From: a virus
Length of the DNA: 32,271 bases
Direction: 5' to 3' (one strand)
Virus record (IMG/VR): IMGVR_UViG_3300021961_000364
Span: 1-32,271 of that record
The stretch's first letter is position 1. Each line of letters begins with the position of its first letter. Below, one piece after another: positions 6,898-27,915 of this stretch. The notes under the pieces are model-generated. The model was not told the origin of the DNA. It ran no database searches and was given only the letters and a program-made list of their open reading frames with translations. Made by a program: the position numbers and the translations under genes.

Positions 6898-7325
6898 GTA
6901 ATCGCCACGGTTTGTTTCACCATCCGTTATGGAAAATCCATCGCAGAATGATGGATCGTTGCTATGACATTAAAGACAAAGCCTATCCAAGATATGGAGG
7001 AAGAGGTATTTTTGTAGATGAGTCTTGGCACTCAATTGAGCAATTTATTCTTGATATGGGTGACAAACCAGAACAGATGTCTCTGGAAAGAATAGACAAC
7101 AATGGTCCTTACTCAAAAGACAATTGTTGCTGGGCAACAGCCAAAGACCAAGCTAGAAATAGAAGAAGCAATCGAATCATTGAATTTAATGGGGTTGCAC
7201 GCACTCTTGTTGAATGGAGTGAAATTACTGGAATTAATAGAACAACTATTGTTAATAGAATTGAACGATACGGTTACAGCATAGAAAGGGCACTCACGCC
7301 GGGATGGAGAGCTAAGTCATGCTAA
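6894..7325 (+). CDS. HNH endonuclease, free-standing homing type
   Basis: 143 residues. RYGGRGI (33-39), SLERIDNNGPYS and DNCCWATAKDQARNRRSN (63-93) are the hallmark of a large phage/intron HNH family (usual form: DRIDN..Y.PENCRWAT..EQ.RN). Residues ~97-140 (FNGVARTLVEWSEITGINRTTIVNRIE) form the helix-turn-helix that follows the nuclease in this family. It probably nicks or cuts a specific site in related genomes and spreads by homing. It overlaps the upstream fibre by 4 bases (ATGA) and the downstream fibre by 7. It is poorer in G+C than the fibre start (7021-7080 about 38%), consistent with lateral arrival. Whether it is active cannot be judged from sequence. Confidence 0.85.
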   Translation: MSNRHGLFHHPLWKIHRRMMDRCYDIKDKAYPRYGGRGIFVDESWHSIEQFILDMGDKPEQMSLERIDNNGPYSKDNCCWATAKDQARNRRSNRIIEFNGVARTLVEWSEITGINRTTIVNRIERYGYSIERALTPGWRAKSC

Positions 7326-9329: not shown

Positions 9330-9989
9330 ATGCAGACTTGTAAGACGTGTCAAGTTGAAAAGCCACTTTTTGATTTTGAATTTAGAAAGGAAAATGGAAA
9401 GTATCGACGAGTTTGCCGTGAATGCCAAAGGCCAGCGCGAAACGCTGCTGCGGTCAAGCGTCGATCAACATTGATGGGCAGATACAAAATGCAAGAACGC
9501 AACGCCTTAGCCCGTGGAATACCATTTCTGCTGTCGTTTGAGCAGTGGCTGACTATTTGGACGGAATCTGGGAAACTGGGTCAGCGCGGACGCGGTGCTG
9601 ATAAGTTTTGCATGTGCAGGAATGGCGATGTTGGCCCATATGAAGTCGGCAATGTGTTTATTGGTACTGGTCGTGAAAACGTCAGGGCTGGAAATCTTGG
9701 AAAAGAAATGACGCAAGAAGTTCGTGACAAGATTTCTCAGGCCAACAAGGGTAAGCCGCATGAATGGTCTCGCGGCACCAAAAATCCAATGCACAGGCCA
9801 GAGGTAAAGGCAAAAATGAGAGCAGCAATTGGTGGTATCAATCACTACAAGCAGCGCGGCGTAAATACGCCACAAGGATATTTTGTAACGTCTAAAGCGG
9901 CTTCAGAGGCGCTTGGCATACCAAAACCAACAGTTGAATGGAGAGCCAGAAATAACAAGTTTGGCTTTTCTTTACCCGCAATTGCTTGA
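9330..9989 (+). CDS. HNH-type homing endonuclease with NUMOD3 motifs
   Basis: 219 residues. There is an N-terminal zinc knuckle (Cys4, Cys7, Cys29, Cys32). A nuclease-like core includes FCMCRNGDVGPYEVGNVFIG (residues 93-112), resembling the RNGD.GPY..GN family of phage HNH proteins. A NUMOD3-type DNA-binding region follows (about 129-166: EVRDKISQANKGK, RPEVKAKMRAA), then a helix-turn-helix (about 183-205: YFVTSKAASEALGIPKPTV). The start is ATG 9330 with GAGG at 9321-9324. Its stop lies inside the ribosome site region of the next gene, so it fits tightly between two tail genes, as homing genes do. The inferred role is a selfish element. The precise subfamily is uncertain. Confidence 0.75.
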   Translation: MQTCKTCQVEKPLFDFEFRKENGKYRRVCRECQRPARNAAAVKRRSTLMGRYKMQERNALARGIPFLLSFEQWLTIWTESGKLGQRGRGADKFCMCRNGDVGPYEVGNVFIGTGRENVRAGNLGKEMTQEVRDKISQANKGKPHEWSRGTKNPMHRPEVKAKMRAAIGGINHYKQRGVNTPQGYFVTSKAASEALGIPKPTVEWRARNNKFGFSLPAIA

Positions 9990-12306: not shown

Positions 12307-12801
12307 ATGCTAGACCTTCTTGGCGGGGGTATTTTTGGATCATTGCTAGGCGGCGTTTTCAGGATCGTGCCTGAAGTCCTGAAGTTCATGGACAAGAAAA
12401 ATGAGCGCCAGCACGAGCTATCCATGTTTGATAAGCAGTGCGACCTTGAGAAAGTGCGTGGGCAAATCCGCATGGACGAGATCGGCGCTCAACGGGACAT
12501 GGCTGTCGATACCGGGGTTTTGTCGGCCTTTAAGGCGGCGATTGACCAGCAAACCCAAATGACCAAGGCCGCTGGCGGCTGGGCTGCTTCTCTAAGCGCG
12601 TCGGTGCGCCCATTGATGACGTATTACCTGCTGCTCCTATATGGCGCTGCCAAGACCGCTGCGATCCTGATTGCGTGGCAGTCGGGCCAGCCGATGCTGG
12701 AGGTGCTGAAAGAGGCGTGGGCCGTGGATGACATGGCGCTGCTCTCGGGCGTGGTGAATTTCTGGATTCTCGACAGGACTCTGGCACGGCGTGGGTTGTG
12801 A
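12307..12801 (+). CDS. Holin, three-TM type (GTA_holin_3TM-like)
   Basis: 164 residues; ATG 12307 after GAGGAG. A hydrophobic N-terminal helix (residues ~3-27), a charged helix with KKNERQHELSMFDKQ, the motif SVRPLMTYYLLLLYGAAKTA (~99-118) and a final hydrophobic helix with VVNFWILDRTLARR match the 3TM holin family first named from gene transfer agents (PF11351). It would form lesions in the inner membrane that release the endolysin. The endolysin gene follows directly, overlapping as TGATG. Family membership rests on motif recall. Confidence 0.8.
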   Translation: MLDLLGGGIFGSLLGGVFRIVPEVLKFMDKKNERQHELSMFDKQCDLEKVRGQIRMDEIGAQRDMAVDTGVLSAFKAAIDQQTQMTKAAGGWAASLSASVRPLMTYYLLLLYGAAKTAAILIAWQSGQPMLEVLKEAWAVDDMALLSGVVNFWILDRTLARRGL

Positions 12802-13244
12802 TGGACTTGCAGATCGCAGCCGAGCTATGCAAGCAGTTTGAGGGGTTCCGGGCAAAGCCGTATCTGTGCCCAGCCGGAATCCCGACGATTGGCTACGGCT
12901 CGACGTACTACGCAGACGGCAGGAAAGTGACGCTGCAAGACGCGCCAATTGATGAGCCGGATGCCGAGAATCTGCTGCTTCACGAGTTGGAAAAAACGTA
13001 TCTGCCGGGGGTTTTGCGCCAATGTCCGGGGCTGGCGGCAGATGAAAGAAAGCTTAACGCCATAGTTGATTTTGCGTACAATTTGGGTGTAGGGAGGCTC
13101 CAAACCAGCACCTTAAAGCGCAAAATAAACGCACAGGACTGGGAAGGATCTCGGGAGCAGTTAATGCTTTGGGTGCGGGGTGGCGGGAAAGTTTTACCGG
13201 GGCTTGTAGCCCGCAGGAAGGCTGAATCCCGGCTTCTTGAATGA
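12801..13244 (+). CDS. Endolysin, GH24 lysozyme
   Basis: 147 residues from ATG 12801 (a GTG one codon earlier is possible). The catalytic pattern Glu-x8-Cys-x5-Thr of GH24 lysozymes is intact: Glu14 (KQFEGFR), Cys23, Thr29 (PTIGYGST). The C-half has FAYNLGVGRLQTSTLKR and a WVRGGGKVLPGLVARRKAE segment typical of the family. It cleaves the MurNAc-GlcNAc bond of peptidoglycan. No signal peptide or SAR anchor is visible, so export should depend on the holin immediately upstream. The length is usual for phage lysozymes. Confidence 0.93.
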   Translation: MDLQIAAELCKQFEGFRAKPYLCPAGIPTIGYGSTYYADGRKVTLQDAPIDEPDAENLLLHELEKTYLPGVLRQCPGLAADERKLNAIVDFAYNLGVGRLQTSTLKRKINAQDWEGSREQLMLWVRGGGKVLPGLVARRKAESRLLE

Positions 13245-13257
13245 CAAGGACTGAAAG

Positions 13258-13893
13258 ATGACCGCTGCCGCTGTCATGACCTACGATAGCTTGGTCGAGA
13301 ATATCCAGAGTTATTTGGAGCGCACAGACCAAGCCACGATCGACAAGATCCCGCTGTTTATTATGCTGGCCGAGCAGGTTATTGCGTCCCAGATCAAGTT
13401 TCTGGGGAATATGACCGTTCAGGCCAGCACAATGGTGCAGGGCACAAATATCATCGATAAGCCCGCACGGTGGCATAAAACGGTGTCCATGAACATCACC
13501 GTTGCCGGAAAGCGCTATCCGGTACTGCTGCGTAAGTATGAATACCTACGGGAATACTGGCCGGATCCGGCTCAGGAAAGCGTCCCCAAGTTTTACTGCG
13601 ACTACGACTACACCCACTGGCTGGTAGCTCCCACCCCGGATGCTGCGTACAACTTTGAGGTGCTGTATTACGAGCGCCTGCAGCCGCTGGATTCTTCTAA
13701 CCAGACAAACTGGATGACGGTTTACGCGCCGCAAGCCCTTCTGTACGGGTCTTTGTTGCAGGCCATGCCGTTCCTGAAGAATGATGAGCGCATGCAGATG
13801 TGGCAGGCTCAGTACAACGCGATCATGCAAACGCTGGTTGCCGAAGACAAGCTGCGCGTGGCTGATCGTCAGGCCATTGCGGTTGATAGTTAA
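13258..13893 (+). CDS. Head-tail adaptor-like structural protein
   Basis: 211 residues; ATG 13258 with AAGGA at 13246-13250. A helical N-terminus (YDSLVENIQSYLERTDQATI, IPLFIMLAEQVIASQIKFLG) leads to a central beta domain (PARWHKTVSMNITVAGKRY, YPVLLRKYEYLREYWPD, FYCDYDYTHWLVAPTPD) and a helical C-terminus (YAPQALLYGSLLQAMPFLK). This plan is that of the phage adaptor/connector proteins below the portal, similar to the SU10-type adaptor. It stands apart from the other adaptor-like gene at 1027, so the virion may have two ring proteins of related fold. The assignment is by architecture. Confidence 0.55.
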   Translation: MTAAAVMTYDSLVENIQSYLERTDQATIDKIPLFIMLAEQVIASQIKFLGNMTVQASTMVQGTNIIDKPARWHKTVSMNITVAGKRYPVLLRKYEYLREYWPDPAQESVPKFYCDYDYTHWLVAPTPDAAYNFEVLYYERLQPLDSSNQTNWMTVYAPQALLYGSLLQAMPFLKNDERMQMWQAQYNAIMQTLVAEDKLRVADRQAIAVDS

Positions 13894-13902
13894 GGATAGG
13901 CC

Positions 13903-15141
13903 ATGAGTTACAACTCGCCGTTTACCGGGAACGTCGTTCAGCCGACGGACGTTTCTTTCCGATCGATCACCCTGACGGCCAATACGCAGCTACAGTGGCC
14001 GATCAACGGAAATGCAACGGATGATGCGGCTGCGAGGATCATGCAGGTTTCGGCCTCCACGACGGGTCTGTCCCTGTTGATGCCTCCAGCGAACCAGACC
14101 TCTGTAGGTAATGATGCGCTGATCCGAAATGTCGGCAGCAATACCTTTACGGTCAAGGATTACGGTGGCTCAAACACCATCATCACCGTTGCGGCGGGTC
14201 AGTCTAGGTACATCTACGTTACTGATAACAGCACAGAATCTGGTGTCTGGGGGAACATTTCCTTCGGAACCGGGACTTCTTCGGCGGATGCGGCAACGCT
14301 GGCTGGATACGGATTGCTGGCTTCTGGGGCCACCCTGAATCAAAGCCACCCGTCTGCGTCCCTGATTGCCGCGTATACGTTTCAGACTTCCGATCGTGCT
14401 CAGACGTATGTCTGGACGGGTGGCGTAACGACAGCCACGCTTCCATTGGCGAACGTCACCGGGAATAACTGGTTTGTTCTGTTTAAGAACAATGGAACAG
14501 GAACGGTTACGCTAAATACGACGAGCAGCCAGACGATCGACGGAAGCTTGGCAAAGAGTTTTGCGCCCGATGAATCGGCTTTTATTCTTTCAACCGGATC
14601 GGAATACATCACGGTCGGGTATGGAAGAAGTACGGATTTTGAGTTTAGCGTCTTTACGAAAAGCGTAACAACTGGTGCGTACACATTATCGGCAAGTGAA
14701 GCATCAAACGTCATTCAGTTTTACACCGGAACATTAAGCGGAAACGTCACGGTCACTTATCCTCCGGTGGTTAATTTGTATGTCGTATCTAACCAGACTT
14801 CTGCTGGCGGATACACATTAACCTTGACAACTGGCATCGGGGGGTCGGCAACCGCGACCGTTCCTCCGTCAGGGCAGGCAACAATTATCTGTGACGGCGT
14901 GAATTTTTATAACGCCAACACGGTTCAGGTTGGCGCAACTGCGGTAAGCCTAATTGATGGAAATGCAGGATCTCCATCATTGAACTTCTCTTCAGAGACA
15001 AATACAGGTGTTTACAGGCCCGGTGCATCAAGGTTTGGGATTTCGGTTTTGGGAACTCAAGTTGTCGATGTGAACGCTTCAGGAATTGATGTTACTGGGA
15101 GCGGAAACTTTACTACCGGGATTTCTGGCGGGACATACTGA
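13903..15141 (+). CDS. Tail fibre-like structural protein
   Basis: 412 residues; ATG 13903 after AAGGA. Low in charge and rich in Thr, Gly, Ser and Asn. Two repeated beta modules are visible: LQWPINGN...IMQVSAST...ALIRNVGSNTFTVKDYGG and YVWTGGVTTATLPLANVTGN...FKNNGTGTVTLNTTSSQTID. Both read like 'blank out, noise, vector' beta-sandwich units of fibres. Residues ~350-400 carry SLNFSSETNTGVYRPGASRF and a final VTGSGNFTTGISGGTY. The stop overlaps the nozzle-like gene (TGATG). It is probably a fibre attached to the adaptor or nozzle encoded on either side. Confidence 0.75.
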   Translation: MSYNSPFTGNVVQPTDVSFRSITLTANTQLQWPINGNATDDAAARIMQVSASTTGLSLLMPPANQTSVGNDALIRNVGSNTFTVKDYGGSNTIITVAAGQSRYIYVTDNSTESGVWGNISFGTGTSSADAATLAGYGLLASGATLNQSHPSASLIAAYTFQTSDRAQTYVWTGGVTTATLPLANVTGNNWFVLFKNNGTGTVTLNTTSSQTIDGSLAKSFAPDESAFILSTGSEYITVGYGRSTDFEFSVFTKSVTTGAYTLSASEASNVIQFYTGTLSGNVTVTYPPVVNLYVVSNQTSAGGYTLTLTTGIGGSATATVPPSGQATIICDGVNFYNANTVQVGATAVSLIDGNAGSPSLNFSSETNTGVYRPGASRFGISVLGTQVVDVNASGIDVTGSGNFTTGISGGTY

Positions 15142-17417
15142 TGACCAAGAAGGTATTCTCCCTTGATACGAAAGCCGGGATCCAGCGGGACGGAACGGTT
15201 TTTGATAAGGACTTCTATACGGATGGTCGCTGGGCTAGGTTCCAGCGTGGAAGGCCTCGCAAGATCGGCGGATATCGGCAGATTACAGACTCCCTTGCTG
15301 GCCCCTCTAGGGGCATTTTCGTTGTTCCCAAGAGCAACTTCAACAACATCTACAGCGGCTATTCGGATGGTTTGCAAGTTATCCCGGTCAACAACAACGG
15401 TGTTGGATCTGGGATTACTGACTTCACATTCTGCGGGGTTCTGCTAACGACCACTGGATTAGTTGGTGGCTCCGGGTATGTAGACGCGGTCTATACGGGT
15501 GTTCCCCTCTCGTATGTAGGGATGGGGATGGGCGCTGGCGCTACCGCGACGATTACGGTGAGCGGTGGTGCGGTAACTGCGCTGACGGTTACTGGTGGCG
15601 GTTACGGGTACACGCAGTTTGAGCAGTTAACTGCGAACAACTCGTATCTGGGTGGCAGCGGATCTGGGTTTTCTGTCTTGGTAGACACGACAGATTCGTG
15701 CTTTACGCCCTCGGATAACAACCTGTGGCAGTTTGATACGTTTACCGATTCCTCCGGGACCGGGAACAGTTATCTGCTGTCTCATCCGGCTCAGAGCCTG
15801 AATGACATTGACAATGAAGTGAACACGCCGGTCATGGCGTCCATCATTGGATCTAGTCATGCAAACCCGATCGGGGTGTTTACAGAGACAGGCTCGATCA
15901 CCACCGGATCACCGAATCTCACGCTGGCTGTTGCCAACTTCAACATTGGCGTCAATCAGCTAGTAACGGGTCCGGGAATCCCTGCAGGAACCCGGGTGCT
16001 GTCCGTTAACCTGACGGATGTCGTTCTTACCCAGAATGCGACCGATACGATTGCTTCCGCCCTGCTGACGTTTGACAACGAGGTGGAAGTATCCGGGGGA
16101 GTAGTAACCCTTCACCCGTATGTGTTCGTCTATGGGAATAACGGGTTAATCCGCAACTGCGCGTCAGGCAACTTTGATGACTGGGTGTCTGCAGACGCGA
16201 ATACGGTCAACGTAGCGACCGGAAAGATCGTCCAAGGCCTCCCTGTTCGGGGTGGCTCAAACTCGCCTTCTGGGCTGTTTTGGAGCCTTGACAGCCTGAT
16301 TCGGGTCTCGTTTGCGCCGACATCTCTGGGTGTCGCAGGAACGGGTAACTTTGCTGCGCCGATCTTCTGGCGGTACGACATCATCTCGTCCCAGTCCTCG
16401 ATCCTGTCTGCTCAGTCTGTTATTGAATATGACGGTATCTATTACTGGTGCGGAACCGATAGATTCCTTTTATACAACGGTGTTGTCAAAGAGATCCCCA
16501 ATCCGATGAACCAGAACTGGTTTTTCGACAACCTGAACTACTCGCAGCGCCAGAAGGTGTATGCGACCAAGGTTCCCCGGTTTGGTGAGATCTGGTGGTT
16601 CTACCCGAGGGGTAACTCGGAAGAATGCAACGACGCGGTGATCTACAACGTGCGGGAAGGCGTCTGGTACGACGTTGGAACGGCGCTAGGTGCTCGTAGG
16701 ACTGCAGGGTACTTCTCTCAGGTGTTTCGCTTCCCTGTGAATGCTGGGTGGGAGCCTAACTACATTGGCGGGGTGAATATGGTCACCATCACCGATGCAG
16801 GAACGGGCTATACCGACGGGACGTACTACTACGAAAACTTGACTGGCGGAACGGGATCTGGGGCCAAGGCCAACATTACGGTCGTGGGAGGGGTGGTGAT
16901 CTCCATCCAGATTACGGATCGAGGGTCTGGGTATACGGTCGGGGATACCTTGTCTGCGAGTCTTCCTGCGGGGGCAGACTTTGAGTTGACCGTAGACTCG
17001 ACCATGAAGTTTGTCTCGCTATGGCAGCACGAGGTTGGAACAGACGAGGTGCGATTCACGCAGAGTAACGCGATTGAGTCGTACATCGAGACCAACGACC
17101 TTGGCTGGGTTGCTGGCGGGCCGTCTCAGCAGTCTCCGATCGGTGAGAACCGGTGGCTGCATATCGAGCGGGTAGAGCCAGACTTCATCCAAAGTGAGCA
17201 GATGGAGTTGTATGTGGTTGGACGCCCGTATGCTCAGGAACAAGACAAGACAACCGGGCCGTATACGTTTGAACCCGGGACATCCAAGATTGATCTAAGG
17301 GAGCAGCGCAGGGAGTTGCGCCTGAGGTTTGTCTCTAACATCTCTGGTGGCAACTTCCAGATGGGCAGGGTGATCCTGAACGCAGACCTTGGGGATGTTC
17401 GTGGCTATTCAGGTTAA
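15141..17417 (+). CDS. Tail nozzle-like structural protein with inserted beta modules
   Basis: 758 residues. The N-terminal VFDKDFYTDGRWARFQRGRP, RKIGGYR motif and the C-terminal half (VIYNVREGVWYD, FVSLWQHEVGTDEV, RWLHIERVEPDFI, LRLRFVSNISGGNFQMGR) belong to a widespread short-tailed-phage protein comparable to nozzle/tail-tube proteins such as P22 gp10. It would form the tail tube below the adaptor. Inserted modules can be seen: residues ~110-178 and ~553-617 (GYTDGTYYYENLTGGTGSGA, RGSGYTVGDTLSA) and ~237-310 (TGSITTGSPNLTLAVANFNI, GPGIPAGTRVLSV). These are repeats common in decorated aquatic phage virion proteins. The nozzle assignment is an inference from family resemblance. Confidence 0.65.
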   Translation: MTKKVFSLDTKAGIQRDGTVFDKDFYTDGRWARFQRGRPRKIGGYRQITDSLAGPSRGIFVVPKSNFNNIYSGYSDGLQVIPVNNNGVGSGITDFTFCGVLLTTTGLVGGSGYVDAVYTGVPLSYVGMGMGAGATATITVSGGAVTALTVTGGGYGYTQFEQLTANNSYLGGSGSGFSVLVDTTDSCFTPSDNNLWQFDTFTDSSGTGNSYLLSHPAQSLNDIDNEVNTPVMASIIGSSHANPIGVFTETGSITTGSPNLTLAVANFNIGVNQLVTGPGIPAGTRVLSVNLTDVVLTQNATDTIASALLTFDNEVEVSGGVVTLHPYVFVYGNNGLIRNCASGNFDDWVSADANTVNVATGKIVQGLPVRGGSNSPSGLFWSLDSLIRVSFAPTSLGVAGTGNFAAPIFWRYDIISSQSSILSAQSVIEYDGIYYWCGTDRFLLYNGVVKEIPNPMNQNWFFDNLNYSQRQKVYATKVPRFGEIWWFYPRGNSEECNDAVIYNVREGVWYDVGTALGARRTAGYFSQVFRFPVNAGWEPNYIGGVNMVTITDAGTGYTDGTYYYENLTGGTGSGAKANITVVGGVVISIQITDRGSGYTVGDTLSASLPAGADFELTVDSTMKFVSLWQHEVGTDEVRFTQSNAIESYIETNDLGWVAGGPSQQSPIGENRWLHIERVEPDFIQSEQMELYVVGRPYAQEQDKTTGPYTFEPGTSKIDLREQRRELRLRFVSNISGGNFQMGRVILNADLGDVRGYSG

Positions 17418-17664
17418 TACCGACCCGCCGCTGGTTTATGACCCGAGGTACATGGACTTCGGGCACTGGGCTGCATTGATGTGTGAGCAGTACGCCGCGC
17501 AGAATGTTGCAATTCCCCTTGACCCGGATGACTGGCAATCATGGGCCTCAGGTCTGTTGGCGATTGATGTGTTTATCAATCAAGGGATCGCAAGCCCGTA
17601 TGCGTTTACCGACTGGCAAGAGTGGGCTGAATCGATGGTTAACGTGATGAATGGTGGCCGGTAA
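17395..17664 (+). CDS. Small conserved structural-region protein
   Basis: 89 residues from ATG 17395; a TTG two codons earlier is an alternative. It overlaps the end of the nozzle-like gene by 23 bases. The sequence has conserved-looking aromatic blocks: PLVYDPRYMDFGHWAALMCE, then DDWQSWASGLLAIDVFINQG, then FTDWQEWAESMVN. The repeated D-W-x-x-W-A pattern is typical of a small protein that sits at this place, after the nozzle gene, in related phages. The role is unknown, perhaps a minor virion or assembly factor. Its stop overlaps the next start (TAATG). Confidence 0.75.
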   Translation: MFVAIQVNTDPPLVYDPRYMDFGHWAALMCEQYAAQNVAIPLDPDDWQSWASGLLAIDVFINQGIASPYAFTDWQEWAESMVNVMNGGR

Positions 17665-20600
17665 TGGCAAAGAAGACGCGGAAAGTCCAAGGCCAAAAGG
17701 TTCGTCGATTTGCTGACGGCGGTGCCATTATTGGATGGGACGATAACGGCCCTATCTACGATTATTCGCAGGTTTCTAGCGTCAATAGCGGGCTTACCCC
17801 CGGAGATATTGGCTATGTAGCGTCCGCTCCAGTCTATCTTGGCGGCGACCCTACAGAACCAAGTAACTTTTACACGCCACCCCCGGCTGCAGCGCCAGCC
17901 CCTGTTGCACAGGTTGCTCCCCTGCCTACCAACATTACAACGCAAGAAGATGCCGTTGCCGCGTATACCGGGCTTCTTGGGTCGGGGTATTCTGACGCGG
18001 AGATCAGGGCAGCGGCAGATCAGATTTACGGCAAGCAGTCGGATGCAGATTGGGCATATCTGCAGTCTGTATCTCAGCCTACATCCGATGTAACTTATTC
18101 AAATCAAAATGTTGGACAAGCGCCCTCTTCTGTAACGCCAAACTACGAAGACATTGTTACTCAAGCCTATGAAGGCATTGGAAGGTCCGGAGAGGGTTCT
18201 GGTGTAAATCAGATAGACACATCTGGAAAAGAATATTGGATTGGTGAGCTTGCCTCCGGAAACATTTCTCCGGAAGACTTCAGCCAAACATTCAATCAAG
18301 CTGTTGAAAATTATATAGCTCAATACCCGAGTGATGCTTACTCTCAGGCGGTTGTTGATTATCGCAACGCCTTAGCTTCCGACTCTTCTGCAGATACATC
18401 TACCGTTAGTGCGTCTGGCGCAACTGCCGCAAATATTAATGCGTTAGAGCAAAACGCAAACCAGAATCTTGTTGTTTCTGCTCTAGGCGATTCAACGACA
18501 TGGGGCTACAACTCTGGCGCTCAAGTTAGCGTCAACATGGTTGATGCCGCCAGAGATCAGTTGTCCAAAGATCTGGGCTACGATGTTGAGTTTAATAACT
18601 ACGGAGTTAACTCAACGACTTTAGGTGATGCCATCAATGGCGGTACCTTTACAAACGCCTTAAACGACAACAGCAGCATCCTGTTGCTCAACTATGGCTT
18701 GAATGAGGCTTACCGTGGCGAAGACCCAAATGAATTCCAAAGGAATTTAGAGTACGCCGTACAAACCGCTCTTAGTAGCGGCAAAGATGTGATCTTGCAA
18801 ACGCCGAACTACACTGAAGCAATCAACAATGTTGATAGGTATGCTCAGATTGTTCGTGATATTGCAGAAAAGTTCAATATCACTTTAGACGACAAGTATT
18901 CGTATACAAGCCCTTTATACGACACTTATAACGCAAGCGATTTGGTTCACCCAACAGAAGACATCTATAAGATGCTTGGGACCAACCTTGCGGGCGTTAT
19001 TGAAAGACAAGTTGGCGCAGGTGGCGAAAGAAATGCTGAACAAGATGTTTACGAGACTCTTGTTTTAGGAGATCAAGACGCTACTTCCGATGATGTCGCG
19101 TATGACTATCGCGGCAAAGAATACGACAAGGACACCCTCCTCACCTTAGCCTCGCAAATCGCTCCAAACATTGGAAGCCTGCAGGGCGGCGTCTATGGGG
19201 AGCAGAACGCTTCTGTTGGGTTTGACTACGACGAAGCCAAACGCATTCTTGGGCAGGATCCAACCGCTCAAGAACAAGTCATCCTTGATATGGCTCGTAA
19301 CCTCATCGATCAGGGGGTTACGGATCTTAGCCAGTTAGAAGTTAAAGACATTACGGGTGACTACCGCACCCAACAAGTCTATGACGAGTTTGGTCAGCCT
19401 ACCGGTCAGTGGCAGGTAAATGTTCCGGACCCCAACAACCCGGAATACACCACGACAAGAATCCTGACGCCAGAAGAAATTGCGCAAATCACTTCGGAGC
19501 GCGTTCAAGATCTTGATTACGACGAGGTCAGATACACGGCAAACGACATCCTGTCTGGCAGGGGTCTTTATTCTGGCGACGATCTCCTGACGCAAGTAGA
19601 TGACCTTACGGCACCTCTGACGCTTGGTGTTGGCGCAACGTATACCGGACCGGGAAGTACGCAGTACCGGCTGATTGCCAACCCGACAACGGGTGCGCTG
19701 CAGTTCAACACGATTGCCGAGTCATCCAGCGACATGGGTGCCATTCAAGGGATTTTGACGGTCGCATCGTTCATCCCCGGGGTGAATGTGTTTGCGATGG
19801 GCGCTAATGCCGCCATTGCCGCAAGCCGAGGGGATGTCTTAGGAGCTTTGGCATCTGTTGCAGGCATAGGTGAATTTACGAATGTTGCTACGGCACTGCG
19901 CGTTGCCAGCGCGGTGGAACAAGGTAATGTGGGTGCGCTTGCCACCGCCATCATGAGCAACACTGATATTTCTGGGCAAGTCGGCTCAGTAATGTTGACC
20001 GACACGGTTTCTCTCTCAGACGCTGTCAATGCTGGCAGGGTCGTCATGGCCCTGAATGATGGCAATTACGCTGCCGCTGCCAATGCCGCCGGAAGCCTTG
20101 TTGATAGTCCAGACCTCAGGACTGCCGCTGCCGCCGCCCAAGTGGTTGCTGCTGCTGCATCAGGAAACCTTAATGCGATCGCCAGCGCGACGAAGATTCT
20201 TGCAGGCACAGCCAACGCAACACAAAATCTAAGCGATCCGAAGATTACGCAAGAAGTTGTTAGAAACGCCCAAGGTGATGTAGATCCGTATTCGGAAGAC
20301 TTTGGGTTCTCGGTTTATCAGTCAGCCAAGAATGCAGGGGCGACCGAAGAAGAGGCGCTTAATGCCTCTAACGTCATCACCGGGGCGAACAACCTAAGTT
20401 TGACATCGACATTTGAGGTTGATGGCAAGACGCTAGGTGACGACTTCTCCAATGCCCCAGTCGTAGATGGCGCTGAAGGAACGGCTGACGCGACCGCTTC
20501 TGCACAAACTTTTGGGGAGGCGTTTAGAGCCGCCAGACAAGAGCTTGGTCCGGGCAAGACCTTTACATGGAACGGTCAGCAATACAGTACCAACACGCGG

Positions 20601-23600
20601 GAAGAAGACCCGGCACTGGCTGCTGCATCGGACAAGGTTACCGGCGCTGCCGCGACTGGAGCACTGTCTGGTGGCATTGATATGCCCAGTGCGGATACAT
20701 CTGTCGATGCGGCAGTAAAGGAGATTGAAGGAGAGCCTCCAGCATCGGGTCCAGCCGCCGAGCTAGAGTACATCACAAGAACGAAGCAGAACATTATTGG
20801 AAAACTAACAGATCCATTAATGAATCCTGCGGAGTTGTCGGCAGCGGATATGTCGAAGCGCATTGAAGAATTTGCCAGTGCGACTCCGGAGAAACGAGAG
20901 GAATTGCTAAAGGGGCCATACGGGTCCACTTACAACGTCATTGACAACGCTCTTTACGCAGCATCATTGGTTCAAAAAGACTCCCCTGCGTATGAACCTA
21001 CGACCGGCGATACGATTACCAACCAACCAACCGTTGGGGATCTAATCAAGGAGCAATTTAGAAAATCTGGAGAAGCGTCCCTTAAATATTTGCAGGAAAA
21101 TCCAAAAGATCCTATGGTCGATACCATAGGGACTGCACTTGAAGGCAGCGGCAACCTTGTAAAAAATATATTTGGCGGCGGCGCTTTGATGCTGGATAAC
21201 AGGCCGCTGTCAGAAGCTTTTGTTGAACAAGGATCCGCTCTTGAGGAGCTTGGAAAGTCTATCGGGACGGGGCCAGAAAACACAAAAAATTATGAAGATA
21301 CTGTAGAGCTTATCAAGAAAGCCAAAGGGTCTGAAAAGCTCGAAGTTCTTGTACAAAGGGTTTTGGAAGGGAAAAGTGGATTAAGCCGCCAAGGAGAGGT
21401 AGAGCTTCGTCAAGAGCTTCCAGCCTTCTTCCTTGGAGGGTCTTCTATACGAGCGGCATTTCTTGCTTCAGGGATAATTGACTCAGCGGATACCGCTGGA
21501 AATGCGGCATTGGAAGAGTTTGATAATTCTATTAAGCAAAACATTCCTTATGAAGAATCTTTACGAAGATCAAGAATAGCCGGAGGGGTGGCAGGAGGAA
21601 CAGAGCTTGGTATTCAGTTAACTATTGGCAAGATAGCAGAAGCGGTTACAGACAAGCTTGGAAGTCTTCCGGCTAAAGCAATATCAAGGATTTTTGGGGA
21701 AGCTACTACAGAGCCTCTCCAAGAGGGAAGCGCTTCTGCTGCTGTTGACTACGCTGTTGGTCGTCCAGTGGACGTTAACAAAGCGCTTACGCAAATGGTA
21801 GTTGCTCTTGGAACTACTGGGAATGTATCAACAACAACGGCTGGCTTGTCCAGCACGTTAGATATCGCGCAAAAACAAGAGAGCGCAGTTACAAACATCA
21901 ATCAGACAGTTGCCGAGGCGGCTGGATCGACCGATGTCAATGCACTGGCAACAGCCATTGATGATGCTGTCAACATGGGCATGGAGGCAGGCCTAGACCA
22001 GAAGGCTGTCATCACGACCGCGTTGGGAACCGCAATAGTTAACGGTGCGGACATCAACAATGCGGTGGATTACGTTGTTGGCTCCTCTATCGCCCAAGAT
22101 CCTCTGACGGTTCGCACAGTTGCCTCTGATGTGATTTCGGCGGTCAATGCGGTCAACGGTGATGTTGATGCGGCCACGACTGCGTTGCAAACATCCTTAG
22201 AAAAGTCTGGGATCGAGCCGTCCACTGCAGCGGATATCGTTGCTGAAGCCAAAGCAACCGCAGACACAACATCGTTCTTCCCGGGAGAGACTGTCGGGGC
22301 AGATCAGGCGGTTGAGGGCACTACAACCATCAATCCCGAGACGGGTGAAAAGACGACCATCAGTGATACTGGAGGCGTTCAGACAACGAATGTCTCGGGT
22401 GGTGGCATAGATACAAAGACCGTCATTGACTCCAACACGGGGATCAGCACAAGAACCATTTCTGATGCTAATGCTGGAACGACAACGCAAGTTGTTAATG
22501 ACTCGAACGCTGGAACATCTACTCAGACGGTCACCGACAACAACACCGGTCAGGTTACAAAAACCGTTATCGATTCCAATACCGGAGTCACGACGGTCAC
22601 AGAAACCAATCCTACAAACAATCAGACTGTTACGACAGTTATTGACGCTAACTCTGGTATCACGACAGAGTCGTCTACTGATCCGACCACCGGAGCGAAG
22701 ACAGAGACCGTTACTGATCAGAATGCCGGAACTACGACGCAACTAGCTACTGATCCAACAACTGGCTCAACAGTTCAAACGACGATTGATTCCAATACAG
22801 GGATCAACAACCAAAGCTCTGTTACTGGAAACGTGACATCAGACACGACCACTAACACGAACAACAACACATCAACGAACGTCACCACAAACCCTGATAT
22901 CAACACGCAAGTCACGACGACAACGAACGCCAACACGAACGTCACGACTCAGGTCACGGTAGACAGCAACAACAATACTCAAACAACCCTTACGACCAAC
23001 AACAACGGTCAGGTGGTTACCGAATCGACGGTTAATAACAACAACAACACCGAGACGACGGTTCAAACGGATCCGACGACCAACACATCGACAACCGTTG
23101 TGGTTGACTTGAATACCAACACGGTTGTGGATTCGTGGACGGATACGAATGTTGAACCCAAGACGGTTGACCCTGTTACCCCGGTCACTGAGCCGACAAC
23201 AGAAACAAAGACCGAAACAAAGACAGAGACAAAGACAACCACCCCATCAAAGCTGCAGCTTCCGAAGACCGCAGCGCAGCCCTCTGGAATCCTTGGCGGT
23301 GTGGCTGGTAGTGCTGGAGAGATTGGACGACTTGCCCCACAGATGCTGAAGTCGTGGGTAACCGGTGAGAAGTACATTGACCCGCTGTCGCGGGTTCGTG
23401 AATCGCAAAAAGAAATGGAAAGAGATGCCATCATGCAGCAAATCGACCCACGTTTAGCCTCGATTCTTCAGAATCGGATGGGCGAACAAAAGCAGGATCT
23501 GTCCGGCCTAGGAACGATTGCTGGAGCGCTTTCTGGTTTGTTTAGCGGATCAGAAAAGCCGTCCAACGATTCGTACTATTCCTACGGGACAGAAGACTCG

Positions 23601-24011
23601 ATTGACGATATTCTGGCTTCGGCGGGCAGAAACTACGCCGAAGGCGGGTATGTCGAGCCGCTGATGGCCGAGGGTGGTATGACCCTCCCCCTACTGGCAA
23701 AACGCGGTGGATTGCCTAAAATGACGGGTGGCCGGGAAGATTTCCGCGATGGCAAGCATGTTGCCGGGGAAGGTGACGGGCAGTCCGACGATATTCCTGC
23801 CATGCTGGCGGATGGAGAGTTTGTATTCCCGGCGGATGTGGTTTCTGCCCTTGGGAACGGCTCTAGCAAGGCTGGGACGGATAAGCTGTACAAGATGATG
23901 CACGAAATCCGCGCCCGGGCGCGATCGACCGGAAACAAAGATTTACCCCCACCCGCTTTCAAATCTCCGCTGGACTACTTAAAATCTAAGCGGGTAAGGA
24001 GCAAAAAATGA
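17664..24011 (+). CDS. Giant virion (ejection-type) protein with SGNH esterase domain
   Basis: 2115 residues. In order: a basic start with RRFADGG; a Pro/Ala linker (~72-92); an SGNH-hydrolase domain (~270-455); a long mixed region; a hydrophobic, Ala/Gly-rich segment (~691-860) and another (~1247-1385) that could be membrane-active; Thr/Asn-rich 12-residue repeats (~1553-1860); and a conserved phage C-terminus (~1990-2115: GEGDGQSDDIPAMLADGEFV, DKLYKMMHEIRAR). SGNH blocks: Gly275-Asp276-Ser277, Gly314 with Asn316, Gly345 with Asn347, and Asp426-x2-His429. Such domains remove acyl groups from sugars. With its three followers it resembles the ejected internal proteins of podoviruses; a peptidoglycan or capsule O-acetylesterase acting during entry is the inference. 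No lysozyme or transglycosylase domain was seen. Confidence 0.85.
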   Translation: MAKKTRKVQGQKVRRFADGGAIIGWDDNGPIYDYSQVSSVNSGLTPGDIGYVASAPVYLGGDPTEPSNFYTPPPAAAPAPVAQVAPLPTNITTQEDAVAAYTGLLGSGYSDAEIRAAADQIYGKQSDADWAYLQSVSQPTSDVTYSNQNVGQAPSSVTPNYEDIVTQAYEGIGRSGEGSGVNQIDTSGKEYWIGELASGNISPEDFSQTFNQAVENYIAQYPSDAYSQAVVDYRNALASDSSADTSTVSASGATAANINALEQNANQNLVVSALGDSTTWGYNSGAQVSVNMVDAARDQLSKDLGYDVEFNNYGVNSTTLGDAINGGTFTNALNDNSSILLLNYGLNEAYRGEDPNEFQRNLEYAVQTALSSGKDVILQTPNYTEAINNVDRYAQIVRDIAEKFNITLDDKYSYTSPLYDTYNASDLVHPTEDIYKMLGTNLAGVIERQVGAGGERNAEQDVYETLVLGDQDATSDDVAYDYRGKEYDKDTLLTLASQIAPNIGSLQGGVYGEQNASVGFDYDEAKRILGQDPTAQEQVILDMARNLIDQGVTDLSQLEVKDITGDYRTQQVYDEFGQPTGQWQVNVPDPNNPEYTTTRILTPEEIAQITSERVQDLDYDEVRYTANDILSGRGLYSGDDLLTQVDDLTAPLTLGVGATYTGPGSTQYRLIANPTTGALQFNTIAESSSDMGAIQGILTVASFIPGVNVFAMGANAAIAASRGDVLGALASVAGIGEFTNVATALRVASAVEQGNVGALATAIMSNTDISGQVGSVMLTDTVSLSDAVNAGRVVMALNDGNYAAAANAAGSLVDSPDLRTAAAAAQVVAAAASGNLNAIASATKILAGTANATQNLSDPKITQEVVRNAQGDVDPYSEDFGFSVYQSAKNAGATEEEALNASNVITGANNLSLTSTFEVDGKTLGDDFSNAPVVDGAEGTADATASAQTFGEAFRAARQELGPGKTFTWNGQQYSTNTREEDPALAAASDKVTGAAATGALSGGIDMPSADTSVDAAVKEIEGEPPASGPAAELEYITRTKQNIIGKLTDPLMNPAELSAADMSKRIEEFASATPEKREELLKGPYGSTYNVIDNALYAASLVQKDSPAYEPTTGDTITNQPTVGDLIKEQFRKSGEASLKYLQENPKDPMVDTIGTALEGSGNLVKNIFGGGALMLDNRPLSEAFVEQGSALEELGKSIGTGPENTKNYEDTVELIKKAKGSEKLEVLVQRVLEGKSGLSRQGEVELRQELPAFFLGGSSIRAAFLASGIIDSADTAGNAALEEFDNSIKQNIPYEESLRRSRIAGGVAGGTELGIQLTIGKIAEAVTDKLGSLPAKAISRIFGEATTEPLQEGSASAAVDYAVGRPVDVNKALTQMVVALGTTGNVSTTTAGLSSTLDIAQKQESAVTNINQTVAEAAGSTDVNALATAIDDAVNMGMEAGLDQKAVITTALGTAIVNGADINNAVDYVVGSSIAQDPLTVRTVASDVISAVNAVNGDVDAATTALQTSLEKSGIEPSTAADIVAEAKATADTTSFFPGETVGADQAVEGTTTINPETGEKTTISDTGGVQTTNVSGGGIDTKTVIDSNTGISTRTISDANAGTTTQVVNDSNAGTSTQTVTDNNTGQVTKTVIDSNTGVTTVTETNPTNNQTVTTVIDANSGITTESSTDPTTGAKTETVTDQNAGTTTQLATDPTTGSTVQTTIDSNTGINNQSSVTGNVTSDTTTNTNNNTSTNVTTNPDINTQVTTTTNANTNVTTQVTVDSNNNTQTTLTTNNNGQVVTESTVNNNNNTETTVQTDPTTNTSTTVVVDLNTNTVVDSWTDTNVEPKTVDPVTPVTEPTTETKTETKTETKTTTPSKLQLPKTAAQPSGILGGVAGSAGEIGRLAPQMLKSWVTGEKYIDPLSRVRESQKEMERDAIMQQIDPRLASILQNRMGEQKQDLSGLGTIAGALSGLFSGSEKPSNDSYYSYGTEDSIDDILASAGRNYAEGGYVEPLMAEGGMTLPLLAKRGGLPKMTGGREDFRDGKHVAGEGDGQSDDIPAMLADGEFVFPADVVSALGNGSSKAGTDKLYKMMHEIRARARSTGNKDLPPPAFKSPLDYLKSKRVRSKK
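22413..23156 (+). repeat. 12-residue (36-base) repeat array within the giant protein
   Basis: Eleven consecutive 12-residue units occupy 22413-22808, with the consensus T-x-T-V-x-D-x-N-[TA]-G-x-[TS] (for example TKTVIDSNTGIS, TRTISDANAGTT, TQTVTDNNTGQV). After a 20-residue interruption, eight looser Asn-rich units of the same length follow at 22869-23156 (for example TQTTLTTNNNGQ, TETTVQTDPTTN). Strand-then-turn periodicity suggests a beta-roll or beta-solenoid stalk. It is coding, not a CRISPR. Confidence 0.88.
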
Positions 24012-24946
24012 GCTTATTTGAAGGAAGCGCCCCGCCGGACATTACAAAAACAACAACCACGGCGGTTACATCCCCGCAATACCTGACGGATTATCTGACC
24101 AAGCTTGCGACAGAAGGCGAGGGGATGCTTGGGAAAACAGGGGCAGAACTTATTGCTCCTGAAAGCTCGTTGTTGACTTCGGCCTATACGGGTGCGCCAA
24201 CAACACTAGAGCGATATCAAAGCCCACTGGATGCGGCGCTGACGGCTGGTCAGGCTGGGGCGGCGGGAATCTCGGCGGATGACATTTCGGCGTTCTATAA
24301 CCCGTATCAGCAAGACGTTATAGATGCGATGGCGAGGCAAAGCGCTCAAAACGTCCAGAGGAACATCTTACCGGCCCTTAGAGGCGCTTTTTCCGGGTCT
24401 GGAGCCTTTGGTAGCCAGCGGTACGCCGGAGCGACTGGGCAGGCGATTGGCGACATCAATGCTGCGCTGCAAAACGAGCAGGCCAAACTGATGTCGCAGG
24501 GGTATACCTCGGCACTAGATGCCGCCCTGAAGCAAAAAGGCTTGCAGACGCAGGCGGCTCAAGCGTTGTCCGGAATTGGAACTGCCGAGCAGCAAGCAGC
24601 AGCAAGCGCCCTGAAAACTCAGGCAGATCTTGGTCAGCTAGAGCAGGCTTATGATCAGTCGCTTATTGAAGCGCCTCTGACTCGTGCTCAGAACGTCGCG
24701 CAGATCCTACGGGGTTACACCTACCCAACGACAGCGACTGAGACGTATGTTGGCCCGGGTCAGATTTATCAGCCGTCTCCGTTGTCTCAGATTGCTGGCC
24801 TTGGATCGTTGGTTGGGGCTTTCAATCAAGGAAGTGGCAATAACTTGATTAAAGACTTTATGAGTCAGGTTCCCGGCTATCTTTCTGGCTGGAATTCCAC
24901 GCCTGATATAAGCGGAACCCCGTCTGGTGATTACACATATACCTGA
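24008..24946 (+). CDS. Internal virion / ejection-type protein
   Basis: 312 residues; ATG 24008 with AAGGAGC just upstream, overlapping the giant gene's stop (ATGA). Mostly alanine- and glutamine-rich helix: DISAFYNPYQQDVIDAMARQ, then NILPALRGAFSGSGAFGSQR, a long coiled-coil region, and a glycine/serine-rich tail (PLSQIAGLGSLVGAFNQGSG). The FYNPY-[QT]-x-DVIDAM and SGAFGSQR blocks recur in proteins of this place in many environmental podoviruses. The composition is like T7 gp14 or P22 gp7, which are ejected into the cell envelope. The ejection role is inferred. Confidence 0.7.
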   Translation: MSLFEGSAPPDITKTTTTAVTSPQYLTDYLTKLATEGEGMLGKTGAELIAPESSLLTSAYTGAPTTLERYQSPLDAALTAGQAGAAGISADDISAFYNPYQQDVIDAMARQSAQNVQRNILPALRGAFSGSGAFGSQRYAGATGQAIGDINAALQNEQAKLMSQGYTSALDAALKQKGLQTQAAQALSGIGTAEQQAAASALKTQADLGQLEQAYDQSLIEAPLTRAQNVAQILRGYTYPTTATETYVGPGQIYQPSPLSQIAGLGSLVGAFNQGSGNNLIKDFMSQVPGYLSGWNSTPDISGTPSGDYTYT

Positions 24947-24979
24947 TGCTGTTCAACAAGCATAAAATTTGAGGCAAGC

Positions 24980-26731
24980 ATGGCAATTAAAGGCTCCTTA
25001 CCGGCTCTGTATGCCCAAGACGACCAGCAGCAGAAGCTTCTTGATGAAATCACGAGCGCGTTTTCAAGCTTGAAAGGCGCTCTTGATAGTCGTCAGCAAC
25101 TGTTCGACCCAACGCTTCTGGCTGCGGCTCAGGGCTTTCTTGCGCCTACAAAATCCGGTGGATTCGGTGAGTCTCTAGGTAATGTTGCCGCCGCTGTTGG
25201 CCCGGTCCAAGAGCAGGAAAGAAGGCGCGGCATGGAAGAGGCCAAGATGCGCCTAGAGCTTGCCCAGAGTGAGCTTGGGATGCGTCAGCAGGCCACTGGA
25301 ATGCAGGCTGCGCGAAATTTATTGAAGCGTATGGGAGGGCCACAAGGCGCTCCCACTGCCCCCACTGCCCCCACTGCCCCGGGCGATCCCGGCGCGGCTT
25401 CTGTAGGGGCCGCTCAACCATCAGGAACGCAACCGTCAGGCTTACGCAACATCACTGCAGAAGACATCGCGGCTCTTGGCATGCTTCCCGGGCAAAGAGA
25501 GCTTGCAAAACAGCTTCTGGATGTCATGAAATATGATCGTGACAGGATCAAGGTTGAGGGAGGCCTGATCGTAGATACTTCCGGCCCAGAGCCAAGGGTT
25601 GTGGCGGACTTGCGCAAACCCGGTGAGCAAAAACCATATGAAATTATGGTTGATGGAAAGAAAAAAGTCGTACCAATGTCTGATATTGAGTACGAACGAT
25701 ACTTAAAAGAAAGAGATGCCGGAAGAGGCGACGAATATGCCAAAAAAACTTTTGGCGCTCTTATTCTTGAGCCGTGGCAGAAAGTTCCTGCCGGTGGCGC
25801 TCTTCAAGAAATTAGTATATATCACCCGAAACTGCGTGAAAGCATTACGTTTCGCGGGAGTCCTCGTGATGCAGCGCAAGCGGAGATATTGCGAGATAGC
25901 GCAACAAGGTCTGGAGACTACTCTGAACTAGACAAGTTCTTGATGGACAAAGGGCAGATTTCTTTCCGGCAACCTCCTGCAGCGCAGGGCGCTCCGATTG
26001 CGGAAGCCGGTCAAAGAAAGGCTCCTCCGACTGCTCCTGAAGCCGCTCAAGAAGCCTCTGATGTTGCTCACTTGCCGTTTGCGGAGCAAATGAAAGTTAT
26101 TGTTGGGAGGCTGGAAAAATCAGAAGTTCCAGCGCAGGAAGAGGTTAATCGCATTTCAGATGCCGGAGCGCCAGCAAAAGTCACAAGCTCAAATTATAGG
26201 CTGCAGAGAATTATTGATCTTGCAAACAAAGACCCGGAGGCATTTGGTTTGGTCCAAAGGCTTGAAAAAGGTCGGTTGGCTGGACTTATGAAAGCAGCGC
26301 AACAAGGTCTTACGATCGGGCCTTTTAGGCTTTCTGTTCCGGTAGAAGAGTATTTAAGAGGGGCGGAATTAACGCCTGATCAAAGAACAAATCTTAGGTT
26401 GATGGCTCAACTTTTAGATGAAGAATTCTTTGCCCGCGCTACTGCCTATAAGAGCGTCCTTGGTCCGCAGATGTCTAATGCGGATGCGGTTTTGATGAAA
26501 TCTCCGATGGCAAGCCCGGAAGATCAAGCCAAAGCAATTAAATACTGGGCAATGAATGGAATAGCATCTAACTTGCAGTACAAAGAGTTGAATGATTCTT
26601 ACGGACAATGGCTAGATAGAACAAAAGGCAGGGTGTCCCCAAGGAAGTTTTGGAGCGAAGACGCTCAAAAAGTCATCCAAAAGCATCAAAAATATCTTGC
26701 TGAATTGCAAGAGAAGCTTGGCCCGGAGTGA
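24980..26731 (+). CDS. Internal virion-type protein, helical, proline-rich linker
   Basis: 583 residues; ATG 24980 with GAGG at 24971. The N-terminal ~110 residues are helical (DDQQQKLLDEITSAFSSLKG, FDPTLLAAAQGFLAPTKSGG, then a charged coiled coil). A PTAPTAPTAPG linker follows. A central region contains a beta-rich part (YEIMVDGKKKVVPMSDIEYE, WQKVPAGGALQEISIYHPK). The C-terminal ~180 residues are helical (PVEEYLRGAELTPDQRTNLR, KYWAMNGIASNLQYKELNDS). No enzyme motif is recognised. Its place between two ejection-type proteins and its domain style suggest it is packaged in the virion. It ends with GGAG, which serves the next gene. Confidence 0.7.
   Translation: MAIKGSLPALYAQDDQQQKLLDEITSAFSSLKGALDSRQQLFDPTLLAAAQGFLAPTKSGGFGESLGNVAAAVGPVQEQERRRGMEEAKMRLELAQSELGMRQQATGMQAARNLLKRMGGPQGAPTAPTAPTAPGDPGAASVGAAQPSGTQPSGLRNITAEDIAALGMLPGQRELAKQLLDVMKYDRDRIKVEGGLIVDTSGPEPRVVADLRKPGEQKPYEIMVDGKKKVVPMSDIEYERYLKERDAGRGDEYAKKTFGALILEPWQKVPAGGALQEISIYHPKLRESITFRGSPRDAAQAEILRDSATRSGDYSELDKFLMDKGQISFRQPPAAQGAPIAEAGQRKAPPTAPEAAQEASDVAHLPFAEQMKVIVGRLEKSEVPAQEEVNRISDAGAPAKVTSSNYRLQRIIDLANKDPEAFGLVQRLEKGRLAGLMKAAQQGLTIGPFRLSVPVEEYLRGAELTPDQRTNLRLMAQLLDEEFFARATAYKSVLGPQMSNADAVLMKSPMASPEDQAKAIKYWAMNGIASNLQYKELNDSYGQWLDRTKGRVSPRKFWSEDAQKVIQKHQKYLAELQEKLGPE
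25352..25378 (+). repeat. Perfect 9-base tandem repeat, three copies
   Basis: CCCACTGCC is repeated three times without a mismatch and encodes (PTA)3 in a linker. The exact DNA identity suggests recent slippage, so copy number may vary between isolates. Confidence 0.9.
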
Positions 26732-26733
26732 TC

Positions 26734-27915
26734 ATGACCGAACAGCAACAATGGGAAAAGTTCGAGGCTGATGTCAACCGCGCAGACATTACGCCAGCCG
26801 AAAAAAAAGCAATTCTTGAAGACGCAAGAACCGTAGGATTTAAGCAATCTGGGAATAAAGTTCCGAGATGGAAAGAATCGTCTCTTGCAGATTTGCACCC
26901 CGTCTTTGCAAGAGAGCTACAGCAAAGAGAGCAAGAAAGGGACAAAAAGCAAGAAGTCCCGCCACAAAAAGATAAATCTTCTCCTGCAGCACAAGCGGCT
27001 TCTCGTGGTGAAACAAGGCTTCAAGATATATCGTTAGCAGACGCCGAAAAAGCTCTTGCAGCGGGGGCGGGATGGAAGGCGGCAGGAAGTCTTGAGAAGC
27101 GGTTTCCGAGAACTCCCGATCAAGTTCCGCCTCAAGCTCCTCCGCAAATGCCTGCTCAAGCTCCTGCTGTTCAGGCTCCTGCTCAAGCTCCTGCTCAGGC
27201 AACCGCTCCTGCTGCACAGACTCCTCGTCCGTCTTCTTTGCCGATCACTGGCGGTCCTGCAGGCCCAATATCGGCAAGCCCTATGGTTCAACAGGGTGGG
27301 ACGGGGACATTCAATTATGGAAAGGCATTCGGCCTGACAGACGTTGAAGCAGCCAGAGCTTTGGATATGAGCAAGCGTCCCGGTGGCGCTCAGGATCTGA
27401 TTGCTCAACGCACCGCAGGGCTAGGTCGTGTCGCGGAGATGGGTGGTGGGTATGTAGAGAACCCGCTATATGGCGGCGTAATGACTCCTGATACAGAAAC
27501 CAAGCGTAGCCCCCGCGTTTCGTTCACTCAAACCCCATCAGGGATGTCCCAGCTTCCTCCGGCGCAACCTGTTCCCACAACCGCTCCGGCACCAACAAGT
27601 ATTCCAGCACCAAGTCAGCCCGGTGCATTGTCGCGTATGGTAGAGCCTATTAAACGTGGCGTGATGGGTGTATTAGGATCTGCACCTGTTTCTGGTGTTT
27701 TAGGTGGATTGGGAACAATGGAGTCATACAAAGAGTATGAGGCTCGTCAAAAGGCTAACGATCCAATAGGGCAGGCTTTAGCAGGGCTAGGCGTTGCTGG
27801 AGGACTTGCTGCACTGGCCCCCCATCCTGTTCCAAAATATTTGGGCATGGGCGCATCTGCCATATCTCCTTTGGGTCTTTATCTGTTGGACAAGTATCGT
27901 GCCTCTGCGCGGTAA
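26734..27915 (+). CDS. Internal virion-type protein with hydrophobic glycine-rich end
   Basis: 393 residues from ATG 26734, which has GGAG at 26725-26728; a GTG two codons earlier is less likely. The N-terminal ~110 residues are charged and helical (WEKFEADVNRADITPAEKKA). Residues ~130-170 form a Gln-Ala-Pro repeat linker (QAPAQAPAQAT). The C-terminal ~100 residues are hydrophobic and rich in Gly and Ala (GVLGGLGTMESYKEYEARQK, ALAGLGVAGGLAALAPHPVP, GASAISPLGLYLLDKYR), suggesting two membrane-active helices, as expected of a protein that enters the cell envelope. It is the last gene of the rightward operon, 68 bases before the terminator hairpin. No known family is recognised. Confidence 0.7.
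   Translation: MTEQQQWEKFEADVNRADITPAEKKAILEDARTVGFKQSGNKVPRWKESSLADLHPVFARELQQREQERDKKQEVPPQKDKSSPAAQAASRGETRLQDISLADAEKALAAGAGWKAAGSLEKRFPRTPDQVPPQAPPQMPAQAPAVQAPAQAPAQATAPAAQTPRPSSLPITGGPAGPISASPMVQQGGTGTFNYGKAFGLTDVEAARALDMSKRPGGAQDLIAQRTAGLGRVAEMGGGYVENPLYGGVMTPDTETKRSPRVSFTQTPSGMSQLPPAQPVPTTAPAPTSIPAPSQPGALSRMVEPIKRGVMGVLGSAPVSGVLGGLGTMESYKEYEARQKANDPIGQALAGLGVAGGLAALAPHPVPKYLGMGASAISPLGLYLLDKYRASAR

Follow-up and report, generated by a model that had tools for sequence, protein, structure and literature searches.

The window analysed here, a stretch of viral DNA of 32,271 nucleotides from the IMG/VR collection, carries behind its tail nozzle gene a very long uninterrupted reading frame, g22, in which a domain of the SGNH/GDSL esterase superfamily lies near the N-terminus (Table 1). 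Its first base doubles as the final base of the stop codon of g21. The order nozzle-g21-g22-g23-g24-g25, with g22 as the first large gene, is kept in about 20 IMG/VR contigs that are syntenic with the window over the genes at 13258-27915.

Table 1. Positions of g22, its modules and the neighbouring genes in the window
Feature	Position	Strand	Basis or remark
Endolysin-like gene, separate from the block	12798-13244
g20, tail nozzle (P22 gp10 type)	15141..17417	+	Profile match to podovirus nozzle chains 8zkm/8zkk, E ~1e-8
g21, conserved small protein encoded between g20 and g22	17389..17664	+	Relatives; GB2A gp066, E=5e-14
g22, giant putative virion protein with SGNH domain, probable tape-measure/ejection class	17664..24011	+	Intact ORF, 2115 aa
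DUF4214-like helical module, g22 residues ~160-236, adjoining the SGNH domain on its N-terminal side	18141..18371	+	Shared with SGNH-bearing relatives
SGNH/GDSL esterase domain, g22 residues 273-436	18480..18971	+	Pfam, invariant residues, fold models
Conserved C-terminal module of g22 (...GDGQSDDIPAMLADGEFVFPADVV...)	23706..24008	+	Resembles the C-terminal region of tape-measure proteins
g23, ejection-type protein	24008..24946	+	phrog_4287 "DNA ejection protein", E=2e-7; GB2A gp064, E=1e-24
g24, third protein of the block	24980..26731	+	Conserved position, partial similarity in relatives
g25, final protein of the block, corresponding to SLT-bearing proteins of relatives	26728..27915	+	C-terminus matches a 446-aa protein of contig L005

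The gp062-gp068 block of the cultivated Caulobacter phage GB2A (RW, RLK, KcrB) is homologous to that of the window and has the same order, running from gp067, the nozzle (E=3e-139 against g20), through gp066, gp065 (annotated as a tape measure), gp064 and gp063 to gp062, whose C-terminus carries a transglycosylase (SLT) domain. No Pfam match was obtained for g24. Members of the g22 family share a genomic slot and a conserved C-terminus, and range from about 950 to 2115 residues. The last 90 residues are the best conserved part of g22, and the N-terminal part varies strongly between relatives. In tblastn comparisons the C-terminal module resembles annotated tape-measure proteins of siphophages (E from 1e-6 to 1e-2), in whose C-terminal part it also sits. 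Outside this module g22 shows no similarity to ejection or tape-measure proteins and has no PHROG match; the SGNH domain and the tape-measure-like module aside, no named family was matched. Because of the gene order, the tape-measure-like C-terminus and the synteny with GB2A, g22 most likely is a virion protein of the tape-measure/ejection class. The original prediction had placed the SGNH domain at the head of an ejection-type block and outside any fibre, and the gene context bears out both points: g22 stands behind the nozzle gene and not among receptor-binding spikes or fibres, the fibre-type genes being separate from it and upstream of the block.

Two minor features of the window were noted. 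Residues ~1550-1830 of g22 (window ~22300-23200) are made of degenerate Thr/Asn-rich repeats (NTGxxTxTV...), too diverged for Tandem Repeats Finder. Genes of the HNH/endonuclease VII type are inserted between the tail-fibre genes, at 6894-7325 and 9330-9989.

Sequence and fold of the SGNH domain

The SGNH region of g22 matches Pfam family Lipase_GDSL_2 (PF13472) with E=4.1e-14 and 53.9 bits, against a curated cut-off of 32.9, and Lipase_GDSL (PF00657) with E=3e-10. The match is far beyond chance, and the SGNH domain announced for this giant protein is real. The catalytic Ser, Gly and Asn and the Asp-x-x-His motif are all found, in four blocks. Across 25 aligned SGNH sequences drawn from three gene contexts, no variation is seen at Ser277, Gly314, Asn347, Asp426 and His429; Gly275-Asp276-Ser277 and Gly345 are likewise invariant. 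One residue assigned earlier to the catalytic blocks, Asn316, falls outside the signature, its position being occupied by N or D, whereas Asn312 is invariant instead.

A single-sequence AlphaFold2 model of the domain (pTM 0.64) gave GDSL/SGNH esterases as its top Foldseek matches. When the model was built from the 25 aligned sequences, block pLDDT values of the SGNH part lay between 75 and 97 and Foldseek returned 4rsh (TM 0.83) and 1yzf (TM 0.78, both by target length), with Axe2 acetyl xylan esterase and TesA (thioesterase/lysophospholipase L1) also among the best PDB matches. Acetyl xylan esterases match the model as well as TesA does. The structure prediction suggested at the outset as a check has thus yielded an SGNH fold, and from this fold and the conservation pattern Ser277, His429 and Asp426 would be expected to meet in space. 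Among viral structures, the best match is the tail spike of phage PP99, annotated as a putative deacetylase. A profile match to structure entry 4k3u, which we take to be the peptidoglycan O-acetylesterase Ape1, is weak (E=4.9e-4), outranked by generic GDSL enzymes as well as by acetyl xylan esterases.

The helical character of the DUF4214-like module comes from the structure model. Its match to DUF4214 is weak in g22 (E=0.011) and strong in contig L059 (E=1e-12), and the module often accompanies the SGNH subfamily in relatives. A hydrophobic segment lies at g22 residues 693-712; in some relatives, too, one is found behind the SGNH domain.

Distribution of the domain and of wall-cutting enzymes

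The nearest relatives of the window, contigs L005 and L030, contain the same block, with a nozzle 76% identical, but lack the SGNH domain, at whose position they have a Gly/Thr-rich linker. PF13472 matched none of 26 related records. A search with the domain as a single protein found no relatives; searches based on alignments did. About 30 contigs were shown by profile searches to carry a dedicated SGNH subfamily (GDSTT, NYG[LM]NEA, LQTPN, D-x-x-HP); another scan, based on a broader alignment, brought just two new contigs. The window, L059, L037 and a second lineage (L080-L087) all have the domain in the large gene, or genes, that come first behind the nozzle; with the window included and near-identical contigs counted once, this amounts to about nine independent contigs. 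Other members of the subfamily are found beside tail-fibre genes (L060-L070) or directly behind the portal gene, between it and the capsid genes (L072). The domain is an accessory of the block. Within relative lineages it is under purifying selection, with dN/dS values of 0.03-0.32. Counting acquisitions from a tree of the domain was abandoned in view of long branches, open forks and mixed contexts. Relatives of the domain in bacterial genomes are all distant, at about 25% identity.

In L080, a single protein of 703 residues joins the SGNH domain to a tape-measure-like C-terminus, and the giant encoded by the preceding gene has a second SGNH domain, which is divergent and shows the blocks GDS and GxND. 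These adjacent genes (L080:4381-8799 and L080:8792-10900) hold SGNH domains of different subfamilies, the first with an apparently altered Asp-His spacing (D-x4-H). A tape-measure-like C-terminal module is also present in gp79 of Pelagibacter phage HTVC103P (L097:3942-5237), whose gene lies between portal and capsid, the slot of the SGNH gene in L072. A 110-kb contig encodes a predicted lipoprotein of 203 residues (L104:9917-10525) that is cell-like, is distantly related to the domain and has GES replacing GDS. An apparent resemblance of the C-terminus of the L063-type SGNH protein to g23 was ruled out by profile-profile comparison (probability 0.6%), and Collagen/EGF Pfam matches in g22 relatives are regarded as low-complexity artefacts.

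The arrangement had been put forward as new. It is not unique to this contig, since it recurs in several lineages, and no description of an SGNH domain in a podovirus ejection block or protein was found in the literature, which is weak evidence of novelty as subscription papers and preprints lay outside the search. SGNH domains are common in phage fibres, and Tal, a tail-associated lysin, has one as well (PMC7048315, PMC5380687). Neither the enzyme domain nor the type of ejection block is new in the present case, but no account of the two together was found.

No SLT domain is present anywhere in the window and no Pfam lysozyme in g22-g25, in line with the original statement that no lysozyme is visible; the endolysin-like gene stands apart. 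SLT was detected in 11 of the 15 SGNH-less records tested (L005 among them) and in none of the 16 SGNH-bearing ones (window included), a comparison confounded by the many records that are fragments and by their origin in different lineages. Four of the SGNH-less records (L007, L019, L020, L028) have neither domain, and the idea of SGNH and SLT as strict alternatives is, with these confounders, suggestive and is not claimed here. In the 446-residue protein of L005, an N-terminal SLT domain (PF01464) is followed by a C-terminus homologous to g25; g25 keeps this C-terminus without the SLT domain, which is also missing in L028 and L020.

Possible roles of g22 at genome entry

The reading we favour, and to which we give about an even chance as a whole, is that g22 is an inner-virion protein of the tape-measure/ejection class whose active SGNH esterase is delivered at entry and deacetylates a glycan of the envelope. 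The phage would have a P22-like short tail, and the domain would be an active O-acetyl-ester hydrolase. As the entry proteins are ejected through the nozzle, the domain would be carried into the envelope, where it would strip O-acetyl groups from the glycan beside the entry channel. Peptidoglycan would be the first choice for this glycan because the block of relatives includes a lytic transglycosylase and O-acetylation of MurNAc blocks such enzymes, which act only where the C-6 hydroxyl of MurNAc is free (PMC1199599). Clearing this modification could be the task of an esterase in the ejection block. The SGNH fold with its invariant catalytic residues, the match of g23 to a DNA ejection family, the tape-measure-like C-terminus of g22, the synteny with GB2A, the roughly nine recurrences behind the nozzle, the fused 703-residue protein of L080 and the purifying selection all count in favour of this reading. 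Against it count the other contexts of the subfamily, beside tail-fibre genes and behind the portal, and the nature of its closest relatives in isolated phages, which are tail spikes, fibres and antireceptors. Further points against it are that the window phage has no SLT for the esterase to assist, that four SGNH-less records have neither domain, and that 4k3u ranks low among the matches.

In other podoviruses, ejection proteins carry peptidoglycan-cutting domains that are exchanged from protein to protein (PMC8954989, PMC11440229). The transglycosylase of T7 gp16 and the lysozyme-like and endolysin-like domains of PhiM1 are, like the esterase domain of g22, attached to large proteins encoded in the ejection block (PMC8954989, PMC11440229). 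The enzyme domains reported from such proteins cut peptidoglycan, in contrast with the esterase domain of g22, in a phage devoid of SLT. A second parallel is Tal of staphylococcal phages (gp59 of 80alpha, gp44 of phi11), which has a C-terminal SGNH domain (PMC7048315, PMC5380687). Like Tal, g22 would be a wall-penetration protein and not a plain fibre; unlike g22, Tal is the hub of a siphovirus baseplate, acts on Gram-positive hosts and has its SGNH domain at the C-terminus, beside a peptidase. Ape1 and Ape2 share the catalytic scheme of the g22 domain, with a weak profile match to the Ape1 structure (4k3u, E=5e-4), but they are cellular periplasmic enzymes, and no specific sequence link to it was seen beyond this match.

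Sequence cannot tell O-acetylated peptidoglycan from a surface glycan as the substrate, and a surface-glycan deacetylase is a live alternative. It is possible, if less probable than delivery at entry, that g22 is exposed on the virion (at the tail tip, at the neck or in fibre-like form) and at adsorption removes acetyl groups from a surface glycan, be it capsule, O-antigen or another, in the manner of G7C gp63.1. The SGNH deacetylases among tail proteins (G7C gp63.1, the PP99 tail spike, Streptococcus thermophilus antireceptors) are of the same superfamily as g22 and have the same catalytic blocks, the likeness of gp63.1 being taken from its description (PMC13123978) and not from an alignment with g22. 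Proteins of Pectobacterium phage PP99 and of S. thermophilus phages are 26-30% identical to the g22 domain and, with fibres, make up its best relatives in cultured phages; a PP99 spike is also its best viral structure match. SGNH receptor-binding proteins are common, two having been shown to be active esterases (PMC13123978), the subfamily adjoins tail-fibre genes in L060-L070, and the N-terminal part of g22 is as variable as in host-range proteins. All these deacetylases, however, are receptor-binding spikes or fibres, whereas the g22 domain lies near the N-terminus of an ejection-block giant that occupies the slot after the nozzle, ends in a tape-measure-like module and coexists with separate fibre genes upstream.

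It seems rather improbable that the domain is a lipase or lysophospholipase acting on host membrane lipids and helping the entry proteins to cross the outer or inner membrane. TesA is among the best structural matches, and the hydrophobic segment of g22 and its counterparts behind the SGNH domain of relatives would suit such a role, but acetyl xylan esterases match the structure equally well, and spikes and antireceptors predominate among the phage proteins related in sequence, one of which is annotated as a deacetylase. Least probable of these alternatives is that the domain has no catalytic function and serves as a structural or sugar-binding module of a protein that is variable and rich in linkers: the domain is dispensable for the block, because closely related g22 proteins lack it, but its catalytic residues are invariant in all 25 sequences over three gene contexts and it is under purifying selection.

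If delivery of the esterase at entry is correct, removal of acetyl groups would itself form part of genome entry and give phages a means of countering O-acetylated walls. A stronger version, which we consider unlikely, is that in a group of short-tailed phages an O-acetyl-peptidoglycan esterase, injected with the ejection apparatus, stands in for the usual transglycosylase, and that these phages enter by de-acetylating the wall, host autolysins then acting, without a cutting enzyme of their own. The GB2A block differs from that of the window in that gp065 has 580 residues, with no SGNH blocks seen in its sequence, and in that GB2A has an SLT domain where the window phage has none; being homologous and available in culture, the block of GB2A and its relatives offers a system in which these ideas are testable.
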